Part shown: positions 5,845 to 18,649 of the stretch, piece by piece
Numbering within the stretch: the first letter of the stretch is position 1
Layout: every line of letters begins with the position of its first letter
Notes under the pieces: generated by a model
Database searches by the model: none
Told to the model about the DNA's origin: nothing
Seen by the model: the letters and a program-made list of their open reading frames with translations, nothing else
From: Actinomycetes bacterium
GTDB lineage: Bacteria; Actinomycetota; Acidimicrobiia; Acidimicrobiales; Acidimicrobiaceae
DNA length: 47,288 nucleotides
Direction: 5' to 3'
Assembly: GCA_021810525.1 (NCBI GenBank)
Contig: JAJZIP010000006.1
Span: 1 to 47,288, forward strand
Position numbers and translations under genes: made by a program

Positions 5845-5994
5845 TTGCTAGTGTGACTGTGCTTCTCAACGCCTTGTGCATAAGGCTGATCCTAGTGTCA
5901 AGAGCGGAGCCAGTCTTGGCAAGTTATTCCTTTGGAGCAGCGGATCAGGATTGCTTGCTTGGCAGTTGGCGTCGTCGGTGGTAGGGTAAGCCAG

Positions 5995-6621
5995 ATGGGC
6001 AACATCGGTTCAGAGGTACCTGCCTACTCAGTACGGGAGGTGGAAGACGATCCGACATGCATCGTCTATTTGGTCCGGCATGGCCGAACCGTCCTGAATG
6101 CTAATGGCATGTTGAGAGGGCATCTTGACCCGCCTCTGGACGGCGTGGGCTTGGAAGAGGCTGAGGCGCTTGGTAGTGAGATAGCAGGGTTTCGCCCAGA
6201 GCTCATTTTGACGTCTCCACTTGTAAGGGCTATGGAGACTGCACGGGCCATCGGGAATCGCTGCGGAGTGACTCCGCGCGTCAAAGAGGAGCTGATCGAT
6301 CGAGACTTCGACCGCTGGGCGGGGAGAATTATCGAGGAAGTTGTTGCCGAGTGGGGCTCTGTTGATGATGCACCAGGGGTGGAGCCATCAAGGTCCGTTG
6401 TCAATCGTGCCAGGAGCGTACTCGATGGCCTTGTCGGCAAGGAGAAGCGCATAGTACTCGTTACACACCAAGCGGTCAATCTCGGACTGCTATCCTCCCT
6501 GGATCCGCAGTCTTGGCCGAATTCTGAGCAGATTCCCCAACCGACTGGCTGCTACAACGTCATTCGTTACCGTGAAGGAATGTGGGAGATAGCCGAAGTG
6601 GCGATAATGCCGCATGTCTGA
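5995..6621 (+). CDS. Histidine phosphatase (phosphoglycerate mutase-like)
   Basis: A 208-residue member of the histidine phosphatase superfamily. The phosphorylated histidine is H29 in VRHGRT, the branch motif LTSPLVRAMETA follows, and the second catalytic histidine is in VTHQAVN. Broad-specificity phosphatases, cobalamin-pathway phosphatases and cofactor-dependent mutases share these motifs, so the substrate is open. I prefer the ATG at 5995 because the conserved domain starts about 20 residues later. An in-frame TTG at 5932 would add 21 residues with no family support. It converges on the universal stress gene, with 25 bp between stops. Confidence 0.85.
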   Translation: MGNIGSEVPAYSVREVEDDPTCIVYLVRHGRTVLNANGMLRGHLDPPLDGVGLEEAEALGSEIAGFRPELILTSPLVRAMETARAIGNRCGVTPRVKEELIDRDFDRWAGRIIEEVVAEWGSVDDAPGVEPSRSVVNRARSVLDGLVGKEKRIVLVTHQAVNLGLLSSLDPQSWPNSEQIPQPTGCYNVIRYREGMWEIAEVAIMPHV

Positions 6622-6646: not shown

Positions 6647-7120
6647 TCATAGCCGATGAGAGTGCTCAGGTGTTACGAGAACCGGGCATCGGCAGTTTTT
6701 CAAAAGCCTTTCAATGGATCTGCCCAGACCCGAGTGAAATATCTGCTCCTCCCCATGGCTGCCCACTACTACAAGGTCAAAGCCGTGATCTTGCGCATAC
6801 TTGCAGATGATATCGGCAGGCGACTCTTCGCTCGATAGCGTATGGCTTGAGATGCCCACGGAGAGTTGTGCCGCCCTTCGACGCAGTGGCGCGGTCATCT
6901 TGTCGAAAGCCGTCCTCGCATCCTCTTCAGAGAACGTCTGATCCTCCTCGGTTTCCAAGAACTTCCTACTCCGCGATACTCCTAGCAAGGTGACCTCCGC
7001 TCCCATTTGGGAGGCCAGGTCGATTCCCCACCTTGCCGCTTCTTCCGCCTCATCAGATCCGTCAATGCCGACGAGGATCCTGTGGACCTTGCGCGTGGCT
7101 GTGGAGGCTTGAGTGTTCAT
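6647..7120 (-). CDS. Universal stress protein, UspA family
   Basis: A 157-residue single-domain UspA protein. It begins with the usual RILVGIDGSDEAEEAARW strand-turn-helix and ends with GSHGEEQIFHSGLGRSIERLL and CPVLV, the region that binds ATP in many family members. It starts 12 bp after the stop of the hyfB-like gene and is the last gene of the seven-gene minus-strand operon. Linkage to a membrane respiratory-type complex suggests a role in the energy or starvation response, which is inference. The next gene, the histidine phosphatase, is convergent. Confidence 0.88.
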   Translation of the reverse strand: MNTQASTATRKVHRILVGIDGSDEAEEAARWGIDLASQMGAEVTLLGVSRSRKFLETEEDQTFSEEDARTAFDKMTAPLRRRAAQLSVGISSHTLSSEESPADIICKYAQDHGFDLVVVGSHGEEQIFHSGLGRSIERLLKNCRCPVLVTPEHSHRL

Positions 7121-7132
7121 GGTTGGATCTCC

Positions 7133-9160
7133 TCACCGAAGGCTTGCAACGAGTAGAAGCGCCACAAGGAGTGTCAGCAACATGTAGGTAAGATATGACT
7201 GAAGCTTCCCGGACTGAAACCGCTTTACAAGCACGACTGTAGCAAGGACAGCGGCTGCCATCGGACGATATAAAAAAGTTTGAACAGGTTCGGTCACTCG
7301 CGTCTCGTAGCGTAGTTCGGACACGGTCTCTCTCTCCTCCGAAGCTCCGTTGGAGTAGATGCGCCGTCTCTCCCTGACGGTGCCCAAAATATTTGACAGG
7401 AGATGTCTCAAAAGGTTTGCATAGCCGAAAGCGGTGTAGCTCGATCTTCCCACCACTCCGGCAGTGGCACTGTGCCAGGGAGGCACTTTCCTGACCTTGA
7501 AATAGCTTCGTCTTGACACAAGCCAGGACAGAAGAAGAACCCCAAGGAACGCTGCGGGCATTTCAATGAAGAGCCAAGAGGGGGATAGAATGGAGAAGTT
7601 GGGAAACACCGGCTGAATGACCCACGGGGAATGCAGTGACCCGTTCATTACGCGCCTCGGTACCAACGAAGACAGTCCGCGTGACACCAGGCGAACCTCC
7701 AATGGGGTGATGGCCGAGATCGCGAGACAGGAACCAGCGAGAAATAGCGTTGGGAGGTTCCAGATTACGCTATTCCCACTCTGGTTGAGCCCGGACTTTG
7801 CCTTGCCGAGCAGGGAGATACCGATAACCCTGATAAACGCCAGAGCCGCGAGTCCCGATGTCAGGGCTACCAGAGCTCCGGCCAACAGCAGAGCCAGCCT
7901 GATCGCAAGGCTTGATATGCGAAACTCCTGCATGAGGGACTCGAGGACAAGCCACTCGGAGACGAATCCGATTGTCGGCGGGAGCCCCGCAAGGGTCAAT
8001 GCGCCTAATGTGAACGAGATGCCCGATCCTGGCAGGGCTCTTGCGATACCGGAAATCTCCTCCAAGTCATCGGATCTCGCCGTTGTTTCTATCTCAGACA
8101 GGGAAGAGAACAATGTTGACTTGGCGACGGAGTGGGCAATTGAATGCATCATAGCCGCTAGAAGTCCCGCGGCTATGAGCATCGTGTTTCCGGCGGCTGC
8201 CCCGGCCAGAGCCACTCCGAAAGCGGTGAAGATGATTCCAGCGTTTTCAACGCTCGAATAGGCAACCAACTTGCTGAGTCGTCTTTCTACTCCGGCAAAT
8301 GTTATTCCCAGCAGCGCGGTGATCCCGCCCAAAAGCAAGACCGCCACTACCAGCCAAATCGGTGGCCGTCCAAGGATCGAGAAAAACCTCAGCAATCCGT
8401 ATACCGCCGTGTTTGCTGCGACACCCGCCATGACCGCCCGAGTCGGGCCGCTGGCGATCGAATAACCAGACGGCATCCAAGCCTGCAAGGGCACTATTCC
8501 AAGCTTTGCTCCAAAGCCGAATACTATCAATCCATAGGCAGCGCCATGCAGTCCGCCACCGTGTGACGTGCTCCAACTCGAAAAAAACAGGCTCTGCGAG
8601 CTTCCAGCCAGAAGAAGAAATCCAAGCAGTATCGATGCGCCTCCTATCTTCTGGATTCCAAGTGTTAGCCATGAATCTTCCGCCTGGCTCCTGGACTGGC
8701 GGGTGATGGAGGTAAGGATGAAGAAGGCCAGTGTCAGAGACTCCCATGCAAAGATGAAGGTGAACGCGTCATCTGCAACGATTATGACCGAGGTAGAAGC
8801 CATCAGGAGGAGATAGCCACTTGCAAGGCCCTTCCTTCGGGGACTTGAATCCTTTTGAATCCAATTTGCGGTGATTATCGAGATGACGAAAGCCAATCCA
8901 AATAGCCAGATCATGAAAAATGCTGCAAGGTTGTCGATTCGAAATATCGTTTCCCCTAGGCCAAGCAGAGGTCCGAGATCGATGGCGATCGGTCCGTGCA
9001 CCAAGACTTTGATGCCCACAACGACCTCCAAAGCCGAACCAAGTATCCCCAGAACATATGGGATTATCCTGCAAGAGGAGCGGGAGGGATTGAGCAGAAG
9101 ATCCACCACGATCCCGAGTAGAAAGGCGAGAAGCGCTATCTCAAATGCCACACTATTCAT
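7133..9160 (-). CDS. hyfB: Hydrogenase-4 subunit B-like, antiporter-type membrane subunit
   Basis: A 675-residue, highly hydrophobic protein of the NuoL/MrpA/HyfB proton-translocating family. The antiporter core is recognisable: lysine-containing helices, GFGAKLGIVPLQAWMPSGY, a histidine-bearing MHSIAHSVAKSTLF segment, and the FVSEWLVLESL motif after GLPPTIG. The hydrophilic C-terminal portion ending in a last membrane helix is as in HyfB/HycC. Its start overlaps the end of the small-subunit gene by 4 bp (ATGA), implying translational coupling. It should be one of two proton- or sodium-pumping subunits of the complex encoded here; ion and direction are unknown. Confidence 0.9.
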   Translation of the reverse strand: MNSVAFEIALLAFLLGIVVDLLLNPSRSSCRIIPYVLGILGSALEVVVGIKVLVHGPIAIDLGPLLGLGETIFRIDNLAAFFMIWLFGLAFVISIITANWIQKDSSPRRKGLASGYLLLMASTSVIIVADDAFTFIFAWESLTLAFFILTSITRQSRSQAEDSWLTLGIQKIGGASILLGFLLLAGSSQSLFFSSWSTSHGGGLHGAAYGLIVFGFGAKLGIVPLQAWMPSGYSIASGPTRAVMAGVAANTAVYGLLRFFSILGRPPIWLVVAVLLLGGITALLGITFAGVERRLSKLVAYSSVENAGIIFTAFGVALAGAAAGNTMLIAAGLLAAMMHSIAHSVAKSTLFSSLSEIETTARSDDLEEISGIARALPGSGISFTLGALTLAGLPPTIGFVSEWLVLESLMQEFRISSLAIRLALLLAGALVALTSGLAALAFIRVIGISLLGKAKSGLNQSGNSVIWNLPTLFLAGSCLAISAITPLEVRLVSRGLSSLVPRRVMNGSLHSPWVIQPVFPNFSILSPSWLFIEMPAAFLGVLLLSWLVSRRSYFKVRKVPPWHSATAGVVGRSSYTAFGYANLLRHLLSNILGTVRERRRIYSNGASEERETVSELRYETRVTEPVQTFLYRPMAAAVLATVVLVKRFQSGKLQSYLTYMLLTLLVALLLVASLR

Positions 9161-9942
9161 CGCGGCTCATTACGATCGGACACGACTCTTAGCGCCAATA
9201 GAATTCCGTAGAGAATTCCAAACGGGCTTGGCGGCGAGCCGGGCACATAGATATCCACTGGGAGAACCTCGTTAATACCGTTTTTGACTGTCTGCGGGCT
9301 GCTACTGTAGACCCCACCGCTTATGGCGTCTGTTCCCACGGCAATCACGGCCTTCGGGTTGGGCATCTGCAGGTACGTCTCCTTGAGGGAGTCGACCATC
9401 CCCAGCGATCCTGCTCCGGTCACTATCAAGATGTCGGCGTGTCTAGGGGACGCGGTGAAAGTAATTCCAAGCCGCTGCACGTCATAGATCGGATTGGTTA
9501 GCGCGGCTATCTCCCATTCCTCGCTCCCATCGGAGCCACAGTCGACGTGACGCAGCACGACCGAGTTGCCAAAAGCCTTCATCCGAATCGCCAAAGCTGC
9601 TTTGACAGAGGCCAAGTCGGTTTCATCCTCAGATAGCTCCGGCACCACGAGGAGCTCTCTTGTCAGCCTGGCGGTTTCGAACTCTGGGGTGAAAGAAAAG
9701 GTATCGCCGTATTTTTCGACACAGCGTCCACAGAATATGCACATACCTATGTCGATACGGGCTTGACCGCTCTCGAATCCAATTGCATGAGTTGGGCAGT
9801 CTTGTTCGATCCGGTCCTGATTGGCGGTTGCGCCCCGGGAAACCATCAGGGATCCCTGCCATTTGTGACCATATCCGTCTGCCTTTTTTGGGTACTTGGA
9901 GGTCACTACACCGTTTGACAGTCCCTTGAAAATCCACGTCAT
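9157..9942 (-). CDS. NuoB/HycG-like small subunit lacking proximal-cluster cysteines, with a ferredoxin domain
   Basis: A 261-residue protein with an N-terminal ferredoxin-like domain and a C-terminal NuoB/HycG domain. The ferredoxin part keeps C49 (DCPTHAI) and C68, C71, C74 (CIFCGRC), enough for one [4Fe-4S] cluster; the second cluster is absent. In the NuoB domain (about 125-255) the fold motifs remain (DCGS, ASPRHADILIVTG, VDIYVPG), but all four expected cluster ligands are changed. Judged by eye against E. coli HycG, these are D138 and E141 (for CNGC), D205 (in VGTDAISGG) and S236 (in VPGSPP). The proximal cluster therefore cannot form in the usual way. Its ATG at 9942 overlaps the large-subunit stop by one base. 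This is the oddest protein in the operon. Confidence 0.88.
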   Translation of the reverse strand: MTWIFKGLSNGVVTSKYPKKADGYGHKWQGSLMVSRGATANQDRIEQDCPTHAIGFESGQARIDIGMCIFCGRCVEKYGDTFSFTPEFETARLTRELLVVPELSEDETDLASVKAALAIRMKAFGNSVVLRHVDCGSDGSEEWEIAALTNPIYDVQRLGITFTASPRHADILIVTGAGSLGMVDSLKETYLQMPNPKAVIAVGTDAISGGVYSSSPQTVKNGINEVLPVDIYVPGSPPSPFGILYGILLALRVVSDRNEPR

Positions 9943-11429
9943 CAGCTGGAGACTCCTGCAACTGAGAGGCCGAAGCTTGCTTCAATGAAGGCGAAGTCGG
10001 TTGCAATGTCTTTTGGAAACGCAGTGGAGAACAGGGCCATGTTGTGAAACGAGGCGGAGCGTAGGTCTACCGACCTCAGTTTGCCGTCCTCCACCGCGAC
10101 AAGGTAGAGCACCTCTCCTTGTGCGGCCTCCGCCCAGCCCAGGGATTCTCCGTCTGTCACTACTTTCTGCTCAGTGAGCCAGCCTTTCGCTGGCGGCGCC
10201 ATCTGTGAAAGCTCATCCAGTGCTTGTTTCAAGAGGTGGAACGAGCCTTCGATCTCGTCGACCCTTACAAGCTGGCGTGCCAAAGCATCGCCATCCGAGA
10301 TTTGCCTAACGGGAAGGAATCCCAGCCGCCTGTAGGCGCCGTAGCTGTGGGAGGCTCTGACGTCGTCGGTCAGTCCCGACCCTCGCCCGACAGGTCCCAA
10401 GGCTCCAAAGAGTCGGGCCTGGTCGTAGGTGACTACACCCGTTCCGCGAAGCCTGTCGACAAACGACGGCGTCTTCAAAAGTAGAGTGAGATCTCGGTCT
10501 ATCTCACGTTCGAGGTTGCTGATTCGATCTGACGTCACTGCGGTATCTAAAAGAAGTGGTACCCTGACGCCACCGGGTGAAACCACGCCCCTTGAGAACC
10601 TGTGTCCACACAGATCGGCCCGCAGCCGCATCACCTGTTCCTTATGAAGGCCGAGTCTCGAAAGGGCGACCGCCTGCGCGGCGGCTTCGCAGTGGCGCAT
10701 AGTTGACTCCAGGTGGTTCGCCACCCGCTCCAGTTCGGCGTGAATCACTCGAACAAGCTGGGCTTGAACAGGAACCTCAGGCTCTGACAAAGCCTCAATT
10801 GCCTGGCAATAGGCAATGGCATGCGCAACACCGGAGACCCCCTCGGCACGTTCAGCCAGGAGGGCCCCGTCTTCGACGGACCTTTCGGCAAAGCCGAGAA
10901 CCACACCTCGGTGCTTATAAAAAGGACGTGGCTCGACATTGAGTATCTCTTCGCCTGGTGTCTCCACTACATATTCAATGGATTCGAACACGCCCGATCT
11001 AACCGGCCCAAGCGGAATCTTAAAGATCCCTTCTCCTGTTACCGAAGGGTTCGAGCCGTTTCTTCGTTGATTGGTGGGTTTTCCCGTATACTTCGAGCGA
11101 GCCGATCTTTTAACATCTCTCTGGAGGATTAGGGGATCTTTGGAATTACCCGTGGACGAGAGACCGAAAAGATCGAAGATCCTTCGTTCGTACCAATCGG
11201 CCACAGGTGTTACCGAACCTAATGACGGATAGGGGGTCTCGCCGTGGCCCAGTTCGCACTTTGCGATATTGTATCGGCCTGCGGAACTCAAGATTCCAAA
11301 GAGGGGCGTTTCGTGGCCACTTCGAAGGGCAAGAAGGCTGGCAAATCTCGCCCCCTCCCTTGCCTGTGCTTCGATCCAGATCGCGAAAGAATCTGGTGTA
11401 AGCACAGTTGCGGTGAATGAATCTGCCAC
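9942..11429 (-). CDS. HycE/NuoCD-like large subunit lacking NiFe ligands
   Basis: A 495-residue fusion of a NuoC-like N-terminal domain (about 1-120, with VADWYERRIFDLFG) and a NuoD/HycE-like domain. The latter shows PLGPVRSGVFESIEY, RPFYKHRG and AYCQAIEAL in family order. Where hydrogenases carry the first NiFe motif CGICG, this protein has EGVSG (E196, S199). Where they end with DPCxxC, it ends SFGLSVAG (S489, G492). So no NiFe site can form, and it is a hydrogenase-related, not hydrogenase, subunit. It begins 2 bp after the stop of the hyfF-like gene. Catalytic partner and substrate are unknown. Confidence 0.9.
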   Translation of the reverse strand: MADSFTATVLTPDSFAIWIEAQAREGARFASLLALRSGHETPLFGILSSAGRYNIAKCELGHGETPYPSLGSVTPVADWYERRIFDLFGLSSTGNSKDPLILQRDVKRSARSKYTGKPTNQRRNGSNPSVTGEGIFKIPLGPVRSGVFESIEYVVETPGEEILNVEPRPFYKHRGVVLGFAERSVEDGALLAERAEGVSGVAHAIAYCQAIEALSEPEVPVQAQLVRVIHAELERVANHLESTMRHCEAAAQAVALSRLGLHKEQVMRLRADLCGHRFSRGVVSPGGVRVPLLLDTAVTSDRISNLEREIDRDLTLLLKTPSFVDRLRGTGVVTYDQARLFGALGPVGRGSGLTDDVRASHSYGAYRRLGFLPVRQISDGDALARQLVRVDEIEGSFHLLKQALDELSQMAPPAKGWLTEQKVVTDGESLGWAEAAQGEVLYLVAVEDGKLRSVDLRSASFHNMALFSTAFPKDIATDFAFIEASFGLSVAGVSS

Positions 11430-11431
11430 GT

Positions 11432-12901
11432 CTAAACCTCCAGTTCCATCGCAGCGTGATTAATCAGGGTGACCAACTCTCCTGGCGGATGTGTCCCCAG
11501 TACTATCAGCCCTAATAGGCACAGAGCTGCTGCGGCGGCGATGAAGTAACTCGGCTCTCCAACGGTCAGGTTGCGAGCGGTCCCGGTTGTAGGACCTATC
11601 AGTGTGTAGGTGGCGAGGTAGGTGATTCCTAAAAACGCGAGAGTGACAAGAACTACCAATGTCACAGCCGCGATGTCGCTTTGGCTCTGCAATCCTCCCA
11701 TGACTATGAGGAATTCGCTACGGAAAATTCCAAAAGGAGGCATCGCCGAAAGGGCCAAGACTGAAAGCATGAACATCGGGCCGGTCAAGGGCAATAGTCC
11801 TATGCCCCCTCTGATTCTCGCCATGTCTTTCGTTTGGAACTTTCGTACCAGCGATCCGGCGCCAAAAAACGCTCCACCTTTGGCCAGGGCATGGGACATG
11901 ACGTGCAAGAGAACTCCGAAAATGGCAATTGGGGCGGCAAAGCTCATCCCAATAGCGAGAATTCCCATGTGTTCGATGCTTGAGTAGGCAAGAAGTCGCT
12001 TTATGTCACGTTGACTGATGAGATAGAGGGCAGCAATGAAAAGACTTGCCAACCCAAAGGCCAAGAGGACGTCTCTTGGGAAAGCTTTGCCGACACTTTG
12101 CTCAGCTACCTGAAAGAAACGCAATATTGCATAGAAGCTTACTGAAAGAAGCGAGCCCGACAGTAGCGCCGACACAGGGGTGGGAGCCTCCGAATGCGCA
12201 TCGGGAAGCCAGGTGTGCACTGGGAAGAATCCAACCTTTGTGCCGTACCCGATCACGGAGAGAACAAACGACAATCTCACGACCTGTCGGGGAAACTTGC
12301 TCGAGCCTGCCAGCAGGTTGGTGAATGAGAAGCTGTAGGACGATCCAAATACGTGAGAGCCGGCATAGTAGATGAAGATCGTTGCAATTAGTGCAATGCC
12401 CAGGCCCAGCGATGCAAGCAGGAGGTATTTCCAAGCCGCTTCGGTAGCTCCATCAGTGCCGTCGATCGCTACCAGAAGGGCAGACACAACCGTCGTGACC
12501 TCAACGGCAACCCAGACCAGGGCCAGGCCGTTCACCATTAGTGCAACGATCATTGCCCAGCAGAAGAGGTTGATCCCGGCGTAGAAGTGTTTGTTGTATT
12601 CTGCACCAACGTTGCTCGAAGGCCGGTGAAGATAGCCGGCAGTAAATATTGAAGTTGCTGCGTATAAGAACGAGATTGGGATCAGGAACACCATCGAGAG
12701 CGAGTCGACGAAGAGGAAGGCGCCGGCAGATGCACTGCCATCTTTTGAAACGGCTGGTATCAAGATCACTGCCAGGACAAACGACAAGACACCAGCGGCG
12801 ATTGTGATGAACTTGGCGAACCGGTCAACCGAGAACCATGACACAACTGACACGATCAGTGGAATGACTGCAAGAATTACCATCGTTGTTGCTATTGCCA
12901 T
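11432..12901 (-). CDS. hyfF: Hydrogenase-4 subunit F-like, antiporter-type membrane subunit
   Basis: A 489-residue NuoM/NuoN-type membrane protein and the second antiporter-like subunit of this operon. Motifs seen are WVAVEVTTVVSALLVA, the helix with GYGTKVGFFPVHTWLPDAHSEAPTPVSALLSG, SSIEHMGILAIG and the LHVMSHALAKGGAFF lysine helix, all standard for proton-channel subunits. It starts 2 bp after the hyfE stop and ends 2 bp before the large-subunit start. E. coli HyfF is of similar size. Expected to sit in the cytoplasmic membrane and move ions when the peripheral arm turns over. Confidence 0.92.
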   Translation of the reverse strand: MAIATTMVILAVIPLIVSVVSWFSVDRFAKFITIAAGVLSFVLAVILIPAVSKDGSASAGAFLFVDSLSMVFLIPISFLYAATSIFTAGYLHRPSSNVGAEYNKHFYAGINLFCWAMIVALMVNGLALVWVAVEVTTVVSALLVAIDGTDGATEAAWKYLLLASLGLGIALIATIFIYYAGSHVFGSSYSFSFTNLLAGSSKFPRQVVRLSFVLSVIGYGTKVGFFPVHTWLPDAHSEAPTPVSALLSGSLLSVSFYAILRFFQVAEQSVGKAFPRDVLLAFGLASLFIAALYLISQRDIKRLLAYSSIEHMGILAIGMSFAAPIAIFGVLLHVMSHALAKGGAFFGAGSLVRKFQTKDMARIRGGIGLLPLTGPMFMLSVLALSAMPPFGIFRSEFLIVMGGLQSQSDIAAVTLVVLVTLAFLGITYLATYTLIGPTTGTARNLTVGEPSYFIAAAAALCLLGLIVLGTHPPGELVTLINHAAMELEV

Positions 12902-12903
12902 CG

Positions 12904-13572
12904 TTATCCTTTTAGCCTGTCGAGATTCGCGGTAGAGAGTGTCTTCGCGCGGACGTGGTGGGCTTTCATCAGAAGCCCGAAGACTACGGCTGCCACTAGG
13001 AGATCGAAGAGGAAAGCAACATCGATTATGAGTGGAAGTCCGGAGGCGACGACAAGGCTCGCGATCGAGACGCCGTTCTCCAGTGAGAGAAAACCGATTG
13101 CCTGCGAAACGACATCGGACCTCATTATGGCGAGGAGGAACGCAACTAAGACTATTGCAATCGAAATTGCCAGAGCTGTGGTGGGAAGCACTGTCGAGCC
13201 GACTTTAGTCGCATCCATGGTGAAGAATCCGAAAGCCGAGGTGGCTATGGCAATCAGTGTCATCGATGCAGCGCCAAGTGAAGGGCCGGTTACAAGGCTC
13301 ATTTCAGTTCGCTCCAAGAACCTGGTAAGCACGTAGGGAACGGCCAAGACCTTGAGGAGAAAAGAGGCGGCACCAAGCAGGTAAAGTTCGGAGATGTGAT
13401 GACTTGTCGCCAGAAAGCCGGCCAATACCGTCACAAGCAGAGATTGCACCGCGTATAGCTTGAGCTGGGAACGAAGCAATGGTGCTCGAAACATAGCGAA
13501 TTCCGTCAGCAGGACGAAGATTGCGATCACGTCGGAGATGTCGGCAAAGGAAGATGGAGCAGGAGCTTGCAT
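12904..13572 (-). CDS. hyfE: Hydrogenase-4 subunit E-like membrane protein
   Basis: I place the start at the ATG of 13572, which overlaps the preceding TGA by one base, giving 222 residues starting MQAPAPSSFAD. A longer reading to 13842 would run through the upstream gene in another frame. The protein is almost entirely hydrophobic, with about six to seven helices. It has the conserved LSLENGVSIASLVVASGLP and FLFDLLVAAVVFGLLM segments of HyfE, which combines NuoK-like helices with extra ones. Length is close to E. coli HyfE. The M. tuberculosis Rv0085 (HycP) type is its nearest relative as I recall. Confidence 0.88.
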   Translation of the reverse strand: MQAPAPSSFADISDVIAIFVLLTEFAMFRAPLLRSQLKLYAVQSLLVTVLAGFLATSHHISELYLLGAASFLLKVLAVPYVLTRFLERTEMSLVTGPSLGAASMTLIAIATSAFGFFTMDATKVGSTVLPTTALAISIAIVLVAFLLAIMRSDVVSQAIGFLSLENGVSIASLVVASGLPLIIDVAFLFDLLVAAVVFGLLMKAHHVRAKTLSTANLDRLKG

Positions 13573-14549
13573 CAACCACCTCCAAGATAGAAGATGAGCA
13601 CAGAGAGGGTGCCAAGGAGAAAGGCCGCGGCCAGAAACTCTGTGATTTTGAAAAGGCGAAGCTTGGAGAAAGAGTTGTCTATGACTGCGAAGATCACTCC
13701 CAGTACAATTGCCTTGGCTAGTAGAGCAAGGACGGCGAGCATCACCGACGAGAGCAGAGTGTTGCTGGCGAGTCCCCATGGAGCGACGAACACGTCGATA
13801 AGAATTGTGTACAGTATTAGCTGTTTCATTGCCGAGCCCCACTTGAGCAAAGCAAACGGAGGGCCTGAGTGCTCGAGGGTTCTGCCTTCATCGATCATGC
13901 CGAATTCAAGGGTTCCGGAATGACTTTCGACCGGTATGCGGCCAGTGTCGGTAAGCACAACCATGAAAAAGGCCAGAGCGGCTAGGACATGAGCGGGCCG
14001 CAGTATCTCGCTGGCAGATGAACGAACCGTTGCGGCCATGGCGTATGGGAGGTCCGTGGAGGTGATGATGCCGGCGGCAAACACCACCATAAGTACCGTG
14101 GGTTCGATGAGCGCTCCGAAAGTCATAGCCCTGCTGCTGCCGAGTTGTGCGTAAGGAGCCCCTGTCTCGGTTCCAGCCAGCGCTACGGAAAATCCAGCAA
14201 GTGCCAAGATGAATCCTCCTCCAAGGATGTCGCCCATATAGCCCAGCGGAAGGCCGAAAGTTGTCAATACAGGGATCAAAAGCGGGACCGTCAGATAGCA
14301 CACGAACGCGACCATGGGAGCCAGCAGAAAGACAAAGCTTGAGTCCTCAGGTGCGAGTGTCTCCTTTTGAAAAAGCTTGATGAGGTCGTAGTAAGGCTGA
14401 AGGACCCTGGGGCCCCTACGGCCTTGGAGCCGGGCACTGATATTAGATATGGTGCCGCTCACCAGAGGAGCGCCGAGGAGTATCGTGAGAACTTGAATGA
14501 TTTGGACCACGACCGGCGACAAGTTTAGGTTACCCAAAGCTACCTCCAC
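13572..14549 (-). CDS. hycD: HycD/NuoH-like membrane subunit
   Basis: Up to 325 residues. It is the NuoH-type subunit that connects the peripheral arm to the membrane arm in complex I, formate hydrogenlyase and related complexes. Visible motifs are RLQGRRGPRVLQPYYDLIKLFQKE near residue 45, the VVLTDTGRIPVESHSGTLEFGMIDEGRTLEHSGPPFALLKWGSAMK loop carrying conserved acidic residues, and C-terminal helices. First gene of the operon. The farthest start is GTG at 14549, but GGAGG lies inside that start region, five bases before an in-frame TTG at 14537. Translation may therefore begin at 14537, removing four residues. Confidence 0.9.
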   Translation of the reverse strand: MEVALGNLNLSPVVVQIIQVLTILLGAPLVSGTISNISARLQGRRGPRVLQPYYDLIKLFQKETLAPEDSSFVFLLAPMVAFVCYLTVPLLIPVLTTFGLPLGYMGDILGGGFILALAGFSVALAGTETGAPYAQLGSSRAMTFGALIEPTVLMVVFAAGIITSTDLPYAMAATVRSSASEILRPAHVLAALAFFMVVLTDTGRIPVESHSGTLEFGMIDEGRTLEHSGPPFALLKWGSAMKQLILYTILIDVFVAPWGLASNTLLSSVMLAVLALLAKAIVLGVIFAVIDNSFSKLRLFKITEFLAAAFLLGTLSVLIFYLGGG

Positions 14550-15143
14550 GTAGTTCCAAGAACTCTGTAGAGGCCATTAGCTCGCTAGGAGCGGTTCAGG
14601 GTAAGACCAGCCGGAACCTCATCCGACGATTTGCACCATCAGCTAGGGCGGTCCTTGTGATCTGCAAATCGTCCCTAATTTACATGATGTGACACCTTCT
14701 GTCCAGCACTCAGTCGGTCTTTATAACATTCGGCCATGAGAAGCTCCGACCCACTGAGCTGGCCTTTGTATTAATCAGGCTGTTCTCGTGAACGGGTTGA
14801 CCTCTCTGGTCTTGACAATTTCCTTAGCATTGTGGCTTGGGTTGTCGCCTTCTATATCCAGCCTTTCATTTGTGCAGCGTTCTCGCGTCACTTTGAAACA
14901 GGGCTCAAGCGCGACAGGTGCGCTCCTGGGTGGGTCGGCACTGGCAACGCTGATTGGCATGAACCCTTGTTCTGGCCTTTTCCATCAATGGCGGAGTTAC
15001 GAGGTAGCTGCGAGGCTCACCAGTCGAGGGTCTTATGTCCTTCGGCACTGAGCTGGATTGCGGCCTGGCAGGTTCAAAGTGGAATGAAGTGCCTATTTAT
15101 GCAGGTAATCCATGATAGTAATAAGTTGTATGAAGTTTTGAAG
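14550..15143. other. Divergent intergenic region between operon and lipoprotein gene
   Basis: About 590 bp between the GTG of the HycD-like gene and the lipoprotein start. Apart from the 11-bp inverted repeat I see no RNA gene. The lipoprotein frame is open leftwards to 14832, but that stretch encodes no signal peptide or recognisable domain. I treat it as untranslated. Confidence 0.5.
14625..14673. promoter_or_regulatory. Perfect 11-bp inverted repeat upstream of the hydrogenase-like operon
   Basis: GACGATTTGCA (14625-14635) and TGCAAATCGTC (14663-14673) are exact reverse complements separated by 27 bases. They lie 76-124 bp before the first operon gene, in the region shared with the divergent lipoprotein gene. 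It may be a regulator operator with two half-sites or a hairpin in the 5' leader. No U-run follows, so a terminator is unlikely. Confidence 0.5.
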
Positions 15144-17126: not shown

Positions 17127-17348
17127 ATGAGCAAAAAGCACATTTGGATTCTTAGGGTTGCGTCATTGTGGACTTTTTATGTGTGGGCTGTACTAGTGCG
17201 AAACATGATTGTTGATCGCACCAACACCGCCGGATTTCGCGCGGTTCACATCGGGTTGGCGGTAGTTTCATTTGTGTTTGCCGCTGCGACATGGAGAATT
17301 TCGAATTTGATCGATCTGCGCGACAAACCCTGTCGGTCAGGGCGGTGA
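17127..17348 (+). CDS. SCO4848-like small membrane protein with a transposon-derived C-terminus
   Basis: A 73-residue protein with two predicted membrane helices (around VASLWTFYVWAVLVRN and VHIGLAVVSFVFAAATW). The pattern W..F.VW...VRNM and VHIGLAVVSFV resembles the SCO4848 family of small actinobacterial membrane proteins of unknown function. The last 13 residues (LIDLRDKPCRSGR) are read from the left end of TnpB element copy A, because the homologous element end at 45903 has the same DNA outside any such gene. The native C-terminus has therefore been replaced after about residue 60. Little of the family's length is lost, so it may still work. Confidence 0.65.
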   Translation: MSKKHIWILRVASLWTFYVWAVLVRNMIVDRTNTAGFRAVHIGLAVVSFVFAAATWRISNLIDLRDKPCRSGR

Positions 17349-17413
17349 ACGATAGCGCTATCGGCGTAGCCGTTACAGGGTTCAGAGTCGAACTCCTAAG
17401 ATATGCTGACGCC

Positions 17414-18649
17414 GTGAGCATCAGCCAACGCCTGTACCCCGACAGCAATGTCACGCCGGCGCTTCTGAAGCTCTGCTTTGATGCTCGCTTTGTATACAAC
17501 CTCGGTCTCGAAGAGAGAAACCTCTGGCATGAAGCGAGGTCACAGAAGATCACCTGCCCCATCCAAGCCAAAGAGCTAGCCGAAGCCCGAAAGGCATTTC
17601 TCCCGCTCGAAGAAGGATCTTCTTCGGTCCAACAACAAGCTCTCAGAGAGCTGGACCGAGCTTTTAGGAACTGGTGGAGAAATCCACAGCACTTCTCACC
17701 TCCCACCTGGCGCAAGGCCGATGTGAACGAGTGCTTCTACATCAGAGTCCTCGAAGAGAGAAAACTGAACCGCAACACCGGAGAGGTACTAGTGCCTAAA
17801 GCCGGATGGGTCAGGTTCCGCCTCAGCCGTAGCTGGCCAGAGATCGAAGCCTCTAGCTCAGCCAGAGTAACCCTGGACCGTTCGGGTAGGTGGCACGTAA
17901 GTTTTACCCAAGCCGCCCCATCCCTTGAACTTCAAGGTACCGCAGCCCCAGTCGGCTTGGACATGGGAATAGCCGCTACCGTCACTACTTCAGATGGCAT
18001 CCACCTCTGTATGGCAAAGCTGGCAAGCCCTGGAGAGGCCCAGAGAAAACGCAGGCTGCAGAGAAAGAAAGCCAGGCAGAAGAAATGCTCCAACCGCAGG
18101 AGCAGAACCAAGCTTTCAGCCAGAGAGAGTGACAGGTGCAGGGACTGGACCGAAAAGACCACCACTGCGCTTGTGCGAGACTACGACTTCATCGCCATAG
18201 AGGACTTGCCGGTTCGAAACATGGTCCGAAGTGCCACCCGAACTTTGGACAATCCTGGCCGAAACGTAGCCCGGAAGCGCGGTCTTAACGGATCTATTCA
18301 ATCTCAAGCCTGGTCACTGTTCCGCCAAAGACTCAAGGACAAGAGAGCAAATGCTACTCACCCTGTACTTGTCATAGCAGTAAACTCAAAGTTCACATCC
18401 CAGGCCTGCCCACAGTGTGGAAATACTACAGCCGAGAACCCCAAGAGCCAAGCGCTCTTTAGCTGTGCCACATGTGGCCATAGGGCTAACGCGGGCATAA
18501 ATGCAGCACGCAACATTCTTGCCGCAGGACTGGGTCCCCTTTGGGGGGTCGCAGGACGCAGAGGGACACCGCACGCGAAATCAGCAATGACCGACCACAG
18601 CGGCCCAATGAAGCGTCAACTCCTCAAAGGATCAGCGCCACGAGCATGA
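17414..18649 (+). CDS. tnpB: TnpB, RNA-guided nuclease family, with substituted RuvC-III aspartate
   Basis: 411 residues from the GTG at 17414, which lines up with the ATG start of copy C; the frame is open further left only through the element end. RuvC-I (GLDMGIA) and RuvC-II (FIAIEDLPVRNM) acidic residues are intact, and the zinc ribbon has CPQC...CATC. The RuvC-III motif, normally D-x-N-A-A, reads AGINAARNI: the codon at 18494-18496 is GGC where copies B and C have GAC. A single A-to-G change therefore removes a catalytic aspartate in the only full-length copy. It could be inactive, or a binding-only protein. Confidence 0.9.
   Translation: MSISQRLYPDSNVTPALLKLCFDARFVYNLGLEERNLWHEARSQKITCPIQAKELAEARKAFLPLEEGSSSVQQQALRELDRAFRNWWRNPQHFSPPTWRKADVNECFYIRVLEERKLNRNTGEVLVPKAGWVRFRLSRSWPEIEASSSARVTLDRSGRWHVSFTQAAPSLELQGTAAPVGLDMGIAATVTTSDGIHLCMAKLASPGEAQRKRRLQRKKARQKKCSNRRSRTKLSARESDRCRDWTEKTTTALVRDYDFIAIEDLPVRNMVRSATRTLDNPGRNVARKRGLNGSIQSQAWSLFRQRLKDKRANATHPVLVIAVNSKFTSQACPQCGNTTAENPKSQALFSCATCGHRANAGINAARNILAAGLGPLWGVAGRRGTPHAKSAMTDHSGPMKRQLLKGSAPRA

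Follow-up and report, generated by a model that had tools for sequence, protein, structure and literature searches.

A fluoride-riboswitch-controlled Ehr-type complex of Actinobacteria with conserved carboxylates in place of proximal-cluster cysteines

Ehr complexes join hydrogenase-like NuoB and NuoD subunits to antiporter-like membrane subunits, lack the [NiFe] motifs, and have no function assigned to them in the literature (PMC4378227, PMC10284858, PMC6349859). In 2010 the crcB motif was described upstream of genes labeled "formate hydrogen lyase" (Weinberg 2010, PMC2864571), and a 2024 review counts FHL among the commonest fluoride-riboswitch enzymes, an association that it explains by fermentation (PMC11139923). 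The DNA analyzed here, a stretch of 47,288 nucleotides from an Acidimicrobiaceae genome (GCA_021810525.1, contig JAJZIP010000006.1; hereafter the window), carries a minus-strand operon in which these two observations meet. Its product has the composition of an Ehr complex, with NuoB- and NuoD-like and antiporter-like subunits and no [NiFe] ligands, and its small subunit has lost the ligands of a further metal center. Among openly accessible papers, no prior report of this complex was found.

The operon begins with a HyfC/HycD/NuoH-like membrane subunit (13572..14537, minus; PF00146 4.9e-35; HycD 7z0s_D E 4.8e-42), which likely starts at the TTG at 14537, the mechanical ORF beginning at GTG 14549. 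Its stop is overlapped by the start of a HyfE-like membrane subunit (12904..13572, minus; NF008556, hydrogenase 4 membrane subunit, 1.7e-21), again with a longer mechanical ORF. There follow a HyfF-like antiporter-type subunit (11432..12901, minus; PF00361 2.7e-50; NdhD/NuoM alignments), the large and small subunits described below, a HyfB/HycC-like antiporter-type subunit (7133..9160, minus; NF005086 1.5e-115; HycC 7z0s_C 7e-35) and, as the last gene, a universal stress protein (Usp; 6647..7120, minus; PF00582 1.2e-26), a conserved neighbor whose cluster covers 18 of the 50 loci compared. Convergent with the operon is another conserved neighbor, a phosphoglycerate-mutase-like histidine phosphatase (5932..6621, plus) that groups with His_Phos_1 ORFs of 8 other loci. 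In the alignments inspected (NuoM/NdhD, HycC and HycD), the HyfB-, HyfF- and HyfC-like subunits retain the Glu/Lys and loop residues of the structural templates, and no operon subunit matches PF02537 (Fluc/CrcB) or PF00654 (CLC-F). Elsewhere in the window, at 17291-18649 (plus), ORF inspection identifies an OrfB/TnpB-like IS605-family gene with the zinc finger CPQCGN...CATCG.

The small subunit (9157-9942, minus; 261 aa) fuses a one-cluster ferredoxin domain to a NuoB/HycG domain, an assignment that holds in sequence (PF01058, 2.3e-23) and in fold, the AlphaFold2 model (pLDDT 87.2) superposing most closely on HycG (7z0t_G; Z 22.0, rmsd 2.0 over 144 residues). A preliminary description of this DNA had claimed that all four proximal-cluster cysteines are replaced, three of them by acidic residues, and had proposed an alignment with HycG as a check. 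The claim stands. Alignments to HycG (7z0s_G, E 6.5e-27) and MbhJ (6cfw_J, E 3.4e-28) both set D138, E141, D205 and S236 on the cluster cysteines, with HycG DCGGCNGCEIE reading DCGSDGSEEWE, GACGNSGG reading GTDAISGG and PGCPP reading PGSPP, and the minus-strand codons confirm the residues (D138, 9531-9529, GAT; E141, 9522-9520, GAG; D205, 9330-9328; S236, 9237-9235). Moreover, neither the sequence nor the model offers an extra cysteine at the proximal-cluster site, the only cysteines of the protein being C49, C68, C71, C74 and C135, the last of which belongs to the DCG motif and is V, M, A, S or L in orthologs. The other four, also correctly described before as a ferredoxin-type cluster that is kept, are invariant among 66 aligned homologs; we take them to ligate the N6b-type cluster, the one nearer to N2 in NuoI-type ferredoxins. 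The cysteines of the other, N6a-type ferredoxin cluster are gone from this subunit and kept in sister paralogs. From the alignments, D138, E141, D205 and S236 would be expected to converge on one site.

Sequencing error, a pseudogene or chance can be rejected as the source of these substitutions, since 60 homologs in one clade carry the pattern. In a homolog set drawn from GTDB genomes and named actinobacteria, the carriers are Acidimicrobiia MAGs, Aciditerrimonas, Streptomyces, Actinocatenispora, Mycobacterium sp. 141, Gordonia, Jongsikchunia, Nostocoides and Leifsonia. Their 60 acidic-type small subunits form a single actinobacterial clade (SH-aLRT 96, with the ligand columns left out of the tree), and its neighbor in the tree is another actinobacterial clade, whose members have all four cysteines; the acidic substitutions are old. 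Within the acidic clade, position 138 is D in 60/60 sequences and position 205 is D in 57, E in 2 and S in 1 (D/E in 59/60), while nearly all have E or D at position 141 (rarely A or V), and position 236 is S in 53/60, with rare A, D, N and M. The question whether the acidic residues vary freely among relatives thus has a divided answer: 138 and 205 do not, 236 partly does, and 141 varies rarely. Two Chloroflexi MAGs (L090:8090-8995 and L100:9773-10873) form a separate clade in which the small-subunit ligands read D/C/E/D, with Cys kept at 141. Their large subunits retain the RxCGxC and CxxC NiFe motifs (ERICGAC...ELCYSC), HypD was not found in either genome, and a convergent loss of the proximal cluster is possible for this pair.

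The large subunit (9942..11429, minus), a fused NuoC-NuoD/HycE-like protein (PF00346/PF00329; MbhL 2e-35, HycE 3e-34), lacks both the RxCGxCxxxH and the C-terminal (D)PCxxC Ni-Fe ligand motifs and has ERAEGVSGVAH and FIEASFGLSVAG instead; EGVS stands where CGxC would be, and no C-terminal CxxC is left. The first Ni-cysteine position is taken by E196, a glutamate found in 70/70 acid-type large subunits. This set was picked by the E-G that all 70 have at the CG of the first motif, and it coincides with the small-subunit clade except for the deep branch L080 (Ser); the sister clade has Ser here and true NiFe proteins have Cys. Nor does the complex qualify as complex I, given that the N2 ligands are absent and that Nqo4 MDYLHSFAH aligns with AEGVSGVAH, so that the DYLH of the NuoD quinone Tyr region reads EGVS. 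HypD is absent from the source genome (90.7% complete) and from eight sampled genus-mates (G000-G008), and is present in some other carriers (e.g., G016, G017 and G089). None of the operon ORFs encodes a formate dehydrogenase (FdhF), a HycB-like ferredoxin or another electron-input subunit. Six subunits do resemble those of FHL/Hyf, and it is as formate hydrogenlyase that both Weinberg 2010 (PMC2864571) and the 2024 review (PMC11139923) name such genes as riboswitch targets. However, with the RxCGxC and C-terminal CxxC motifs, the proximal cluster, the HypD of source genome and genus, and the FdhF and HycB of an FHL operon all missing, the label is almost certainly wrong here, and we reject both formate hydrogenlyase and hydrogenase.

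The relay steps of FHL are each <14 Å (PMC9474812), so the loss of one link should stop transfer, and here the relay is interrupted at two of three clusters (N6a-type and proximal N2-type), in addition to the missing [NiFe] ligands. Judged from sequence, electron flow from the input side to the NiFe/quinone site has probably been lost, leaving one isolated N6b-type [4Fe-4S]. It could be argued that this is still a redox enzyme, whose N6b-type cluster takes electrons and in which the tasks of the proximal cluster and of the acceptor site fall to some unseen cofactor or partner, with pumping as in Mbx or complex I. The invariance of C49, C68, C71 and C74, the retention of the membrane arm and the NuoC/D/B core, and the redox-driven character of the characterized relatives (PMC6349859) all fit such an enzyme, but the gaps in the relay and at the NiFe site, the EGVS in the quinone Tyr region and an operon devoid of an electron-input subunit make it unlikely.

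Directly 5′ of the operon, ahead of hyfC, is a fluoride riboswitch aptamer (crcB motif, Rfam RF01734; 14561..14633, minus). Against RF01734 it scores 26.5 bits (E 6e-4 for 11 kb), under the gathering score of 34, and against R1, a clade-specific model made from 19 clade members (alignment A4), it scores 69.1 bits, this aptamer being itself a training member. R1 matches a riboswitch on the same strand ahead of hyfC in 48/49 genes tabulated and before 45/46 clade operons, 43 of them within 150 nt; the latter count omits three additional hyfC copies for which no small subunit was seen, and 19 of the positives come from the training set, the remainder from outside it. At outgroup operons R1 finds none (0/21), and RF01734 at its gathering threshold finds none in eight outgroup loci. 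Riboswitches also precede the operons of other carriers, and score higher ahead of four-cysteine paralog operons. In the 19 relatives, P1, P3 and the pseudoknot are paired in 95.1% of cells, with covariation above all 500 shuffles. The pseudoknot taken separately is 91.6% paired, and its pair 3 (A4 columns 14/84) is mismatched in 7/19 acidic-clade riboswitches, with a GACGC or GATGC loop, possibly marking a lower-affinity variant. Upstream of the aptamer, window positions 14634-14680 (minus) hold an inverted repeat, ACGATTTGCA/TGCAAATCGT, and a GACCGCCCTAGCTGATGG stretch that resembles a partial second aptamer. In the expression platform (14543..14574, minus), the aptamer 3′ strand GCCUCUAC pairs with the Shine-Dalgarno-containing GUGGAGGU (-20.8 kcal/mol, z -2.72), and a helix of at least 7 bp occurs at the same place in 28/33 operons tested. 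Since the strand that pairs with the Shine-Dalgarno is the pseudoknot 3′ strand, and the two pairings are mutually exclusive, fluoride should turn translation of the operon on.

The neighborhood tells a similar story. Conserved neighbors across loci are Usp, two CrcB genes, DUF190, enolase, MutS domain V proteins, a dynamin-like GTPase, DegV and the phosphoglycerate-mutase-like protein; several of them belong to the known fluoride-response set, and together with the riboswitch this gene neighborhood is the strongest functional clue. The source genome also has a four-cysteine paralog operon (G000:C2:2537-10005, L144) with a fluoride riboswitch of its own (49.8 bits). The paralog has the same gene order, the same ferredoxin-NuoB fusion and the same absence of [NiFe] ligands, but it keeps both ferredoxin-type clusters and the four proximal cysteines and has Ser, not Glu, at large-subunit position 196. 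Because the sister keeps its clusters and is also under fluoride control, the fluoride function appears to be independent of cluster loss. The order of events would then be that [NiFe] ligand loss and fluoride control predate the split from the four-cysteine sister, and that after the split the proximal and the outer ferredoxin cluster disappeared from the acidic clade, where the carboxylates, E196 included, became fixed; this clade may thus have moved from operation driven by ferredoxin to operation without redox chemistry. Several further observations concern these loci. An OrfB/Cas12f-like gene lies close to the paralog operon (L144:7-777). A third fluoride riboswitch of the source genome (G000:C179:22366-22426; L145:8367-8427) has a phosphoglycerate-mutase-like gene and two MutS-domain-V genes downstream. 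At two other loci (L057:15333-19158 and L082:7290-10122), a second complex adjoins the acidic-type operon on the opposite strand, with a four-cysteine small subunit that is without ferredoxin cysteines and a large subunit with an EG...IEASF signature. CrcB is missing from 12/25 acid-type carriers and from 23/122 of the order's remaining genomes (Fisher p 0.004, for related taxa), and every CrcB-less carrier has some CLC protein, so that the case for the complex as a substitute for the missing exporter is only suggestive. Phylum-wide sampling turned up too few carriers to add to this comparison.

The preliminary description had taken the loss of the cluster as a sign of a different job, and this is supported by the conservation of the carboxylates, the absence of the [NiFe] ligands and the interrupted relay. 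Sequence does not discriminate among the options that it offered (a divalent metal site, a structural role, or ion pumping with another input), but ion transport is favored because the membrane arm is intact. The effect of HF, which lowers pH and PMF, and the rank of Na+/H+ antiporters as the second commonest fluoride-riboswitch class (PMC11139923) also support ion transport, and a complex with no [NiFe] site or key cluster that is under a fluoride switch probably transports ions in fluoride stress and is probably not an enzyme of hydrogen or formate metabolism. Our main reading is that the operon encodes an Ehr-type complex with a cut relay that would transport ions without redox chemistry when fluoride is a stress, for which we would give odds slightly better than even (roughly 55%). 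In such a scheme, fluoride enters, the riboswitch binds it, the Shine-Dalgarno is freed and the complex would be made on demand; the peripheral arm could not conduct electrons to the NiFe/quinone site, and the membrane arm would retain its ion channels. Transport might take the form of H+ export or cation exchange, restoring the pH and PMF collapsed by HF, or the complex might move F- itself. The carboxylates where the cluster used to be, together with E196 in the former [NiFe] cavity, could make up a hard-metal or a proton/charge site that couples or gates transport. Against this reading count the strict conservation of the N6b cluster, a hint that it still has a redox or sensing function, and the fluoride control of a sister paralog in which every cluster is intact. 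The score of the window aptamer under the Rfam threshold and the pair-3 mismatches of some relatives also weigh against it.

What the carboxylates themselves do can be read in more than one way. They may be structural, forming salt bridges to conserved large-subunit Arg/His that replace the charge of the cluster without any metal, an arrangement compatible with the transporter and one to which we assign a substantial chance, though short of even. Large-subunit residues R245, R258, R328, H230 and H462 are basic and specific to the acid clade, and S236 and E141 are replaceable, both as expected for salt bridging; on the other hand, the conservation of D138 (60/60) and of D/E at 205 (59/60) speaks against it, and the Chloroflexi pair independently gained D, E and D at 138, 205 and 236, which suggests selection for carboxylates at those positions. 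A hard-metal site would be chemically attractive (hard ligands, hard anion), and salt bridging is at least as likely; the tolerance of A, N, D or M at 236, and sometimes of A or V at 141, is weaker conservation than a strict four-ligand metal site would lead one to expect. The boldest version is a complex-I-derived fluoride-extruding machine, with the former N2 pocket turned into a carboxylate/hard-metal (Mg2+- or Al3+-like) site whose binding of fluoride or metal-fluoride would drive or gate the passage of ions across the antiporter subunits; this we regard as a long shot.

In any case, the unassigned function of Ehr and the odd 2010 "formate hydrogenlyase" entry among fluoride-riboswitch genes are now tied together: the fluoride-controlled "FHL," at least in Actinobacteria, is an Ehr complex predicted to be unable to produce H2, and in one clade the electron relay has been taken apart, with conserved carboxylates in its place. 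If ion transport without redox input is true, this would be a natural cut-relay complex I, with pumping separated from electron transfer, the two sides of a long-debated coupling question, and it would have a directly testable fluoride-tolerance phenotype.

Among known systems, the Ehr complexes are the closest, sharing the group-4-hydrogenase-like subunit set that lacks [NiFe] ligands; the window complex differs from them in having also lost the proximal and one ferredoxin cluster, in its conserved carboxylates and in its fluoride riboswitch. Escherichia coli FHL/hydrogenase-4 (Hyc/Hyf) has counterparts of the HyfB, C, E, F, G (fused NuoCD) and I-like subunits, with the HycG fold matching at Z 22, but the window complex is without the [NiFe] site, the proximal cluster, the formate dehydrogenase and a genomic HypD. 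DAB2, in which a complex-I-type membrane subunit is coupled to non-redox chemistry (PMC13144422), and the Mrp antiporters likewise have complex-I-type antiporter subunits that work without redox input. They are systems that the window complex would work like and not ones to which it belongs, since DabA has a carbonic-anhydrase fold and Mrp is without the NuoB/NuoD arm that the window complex retains.
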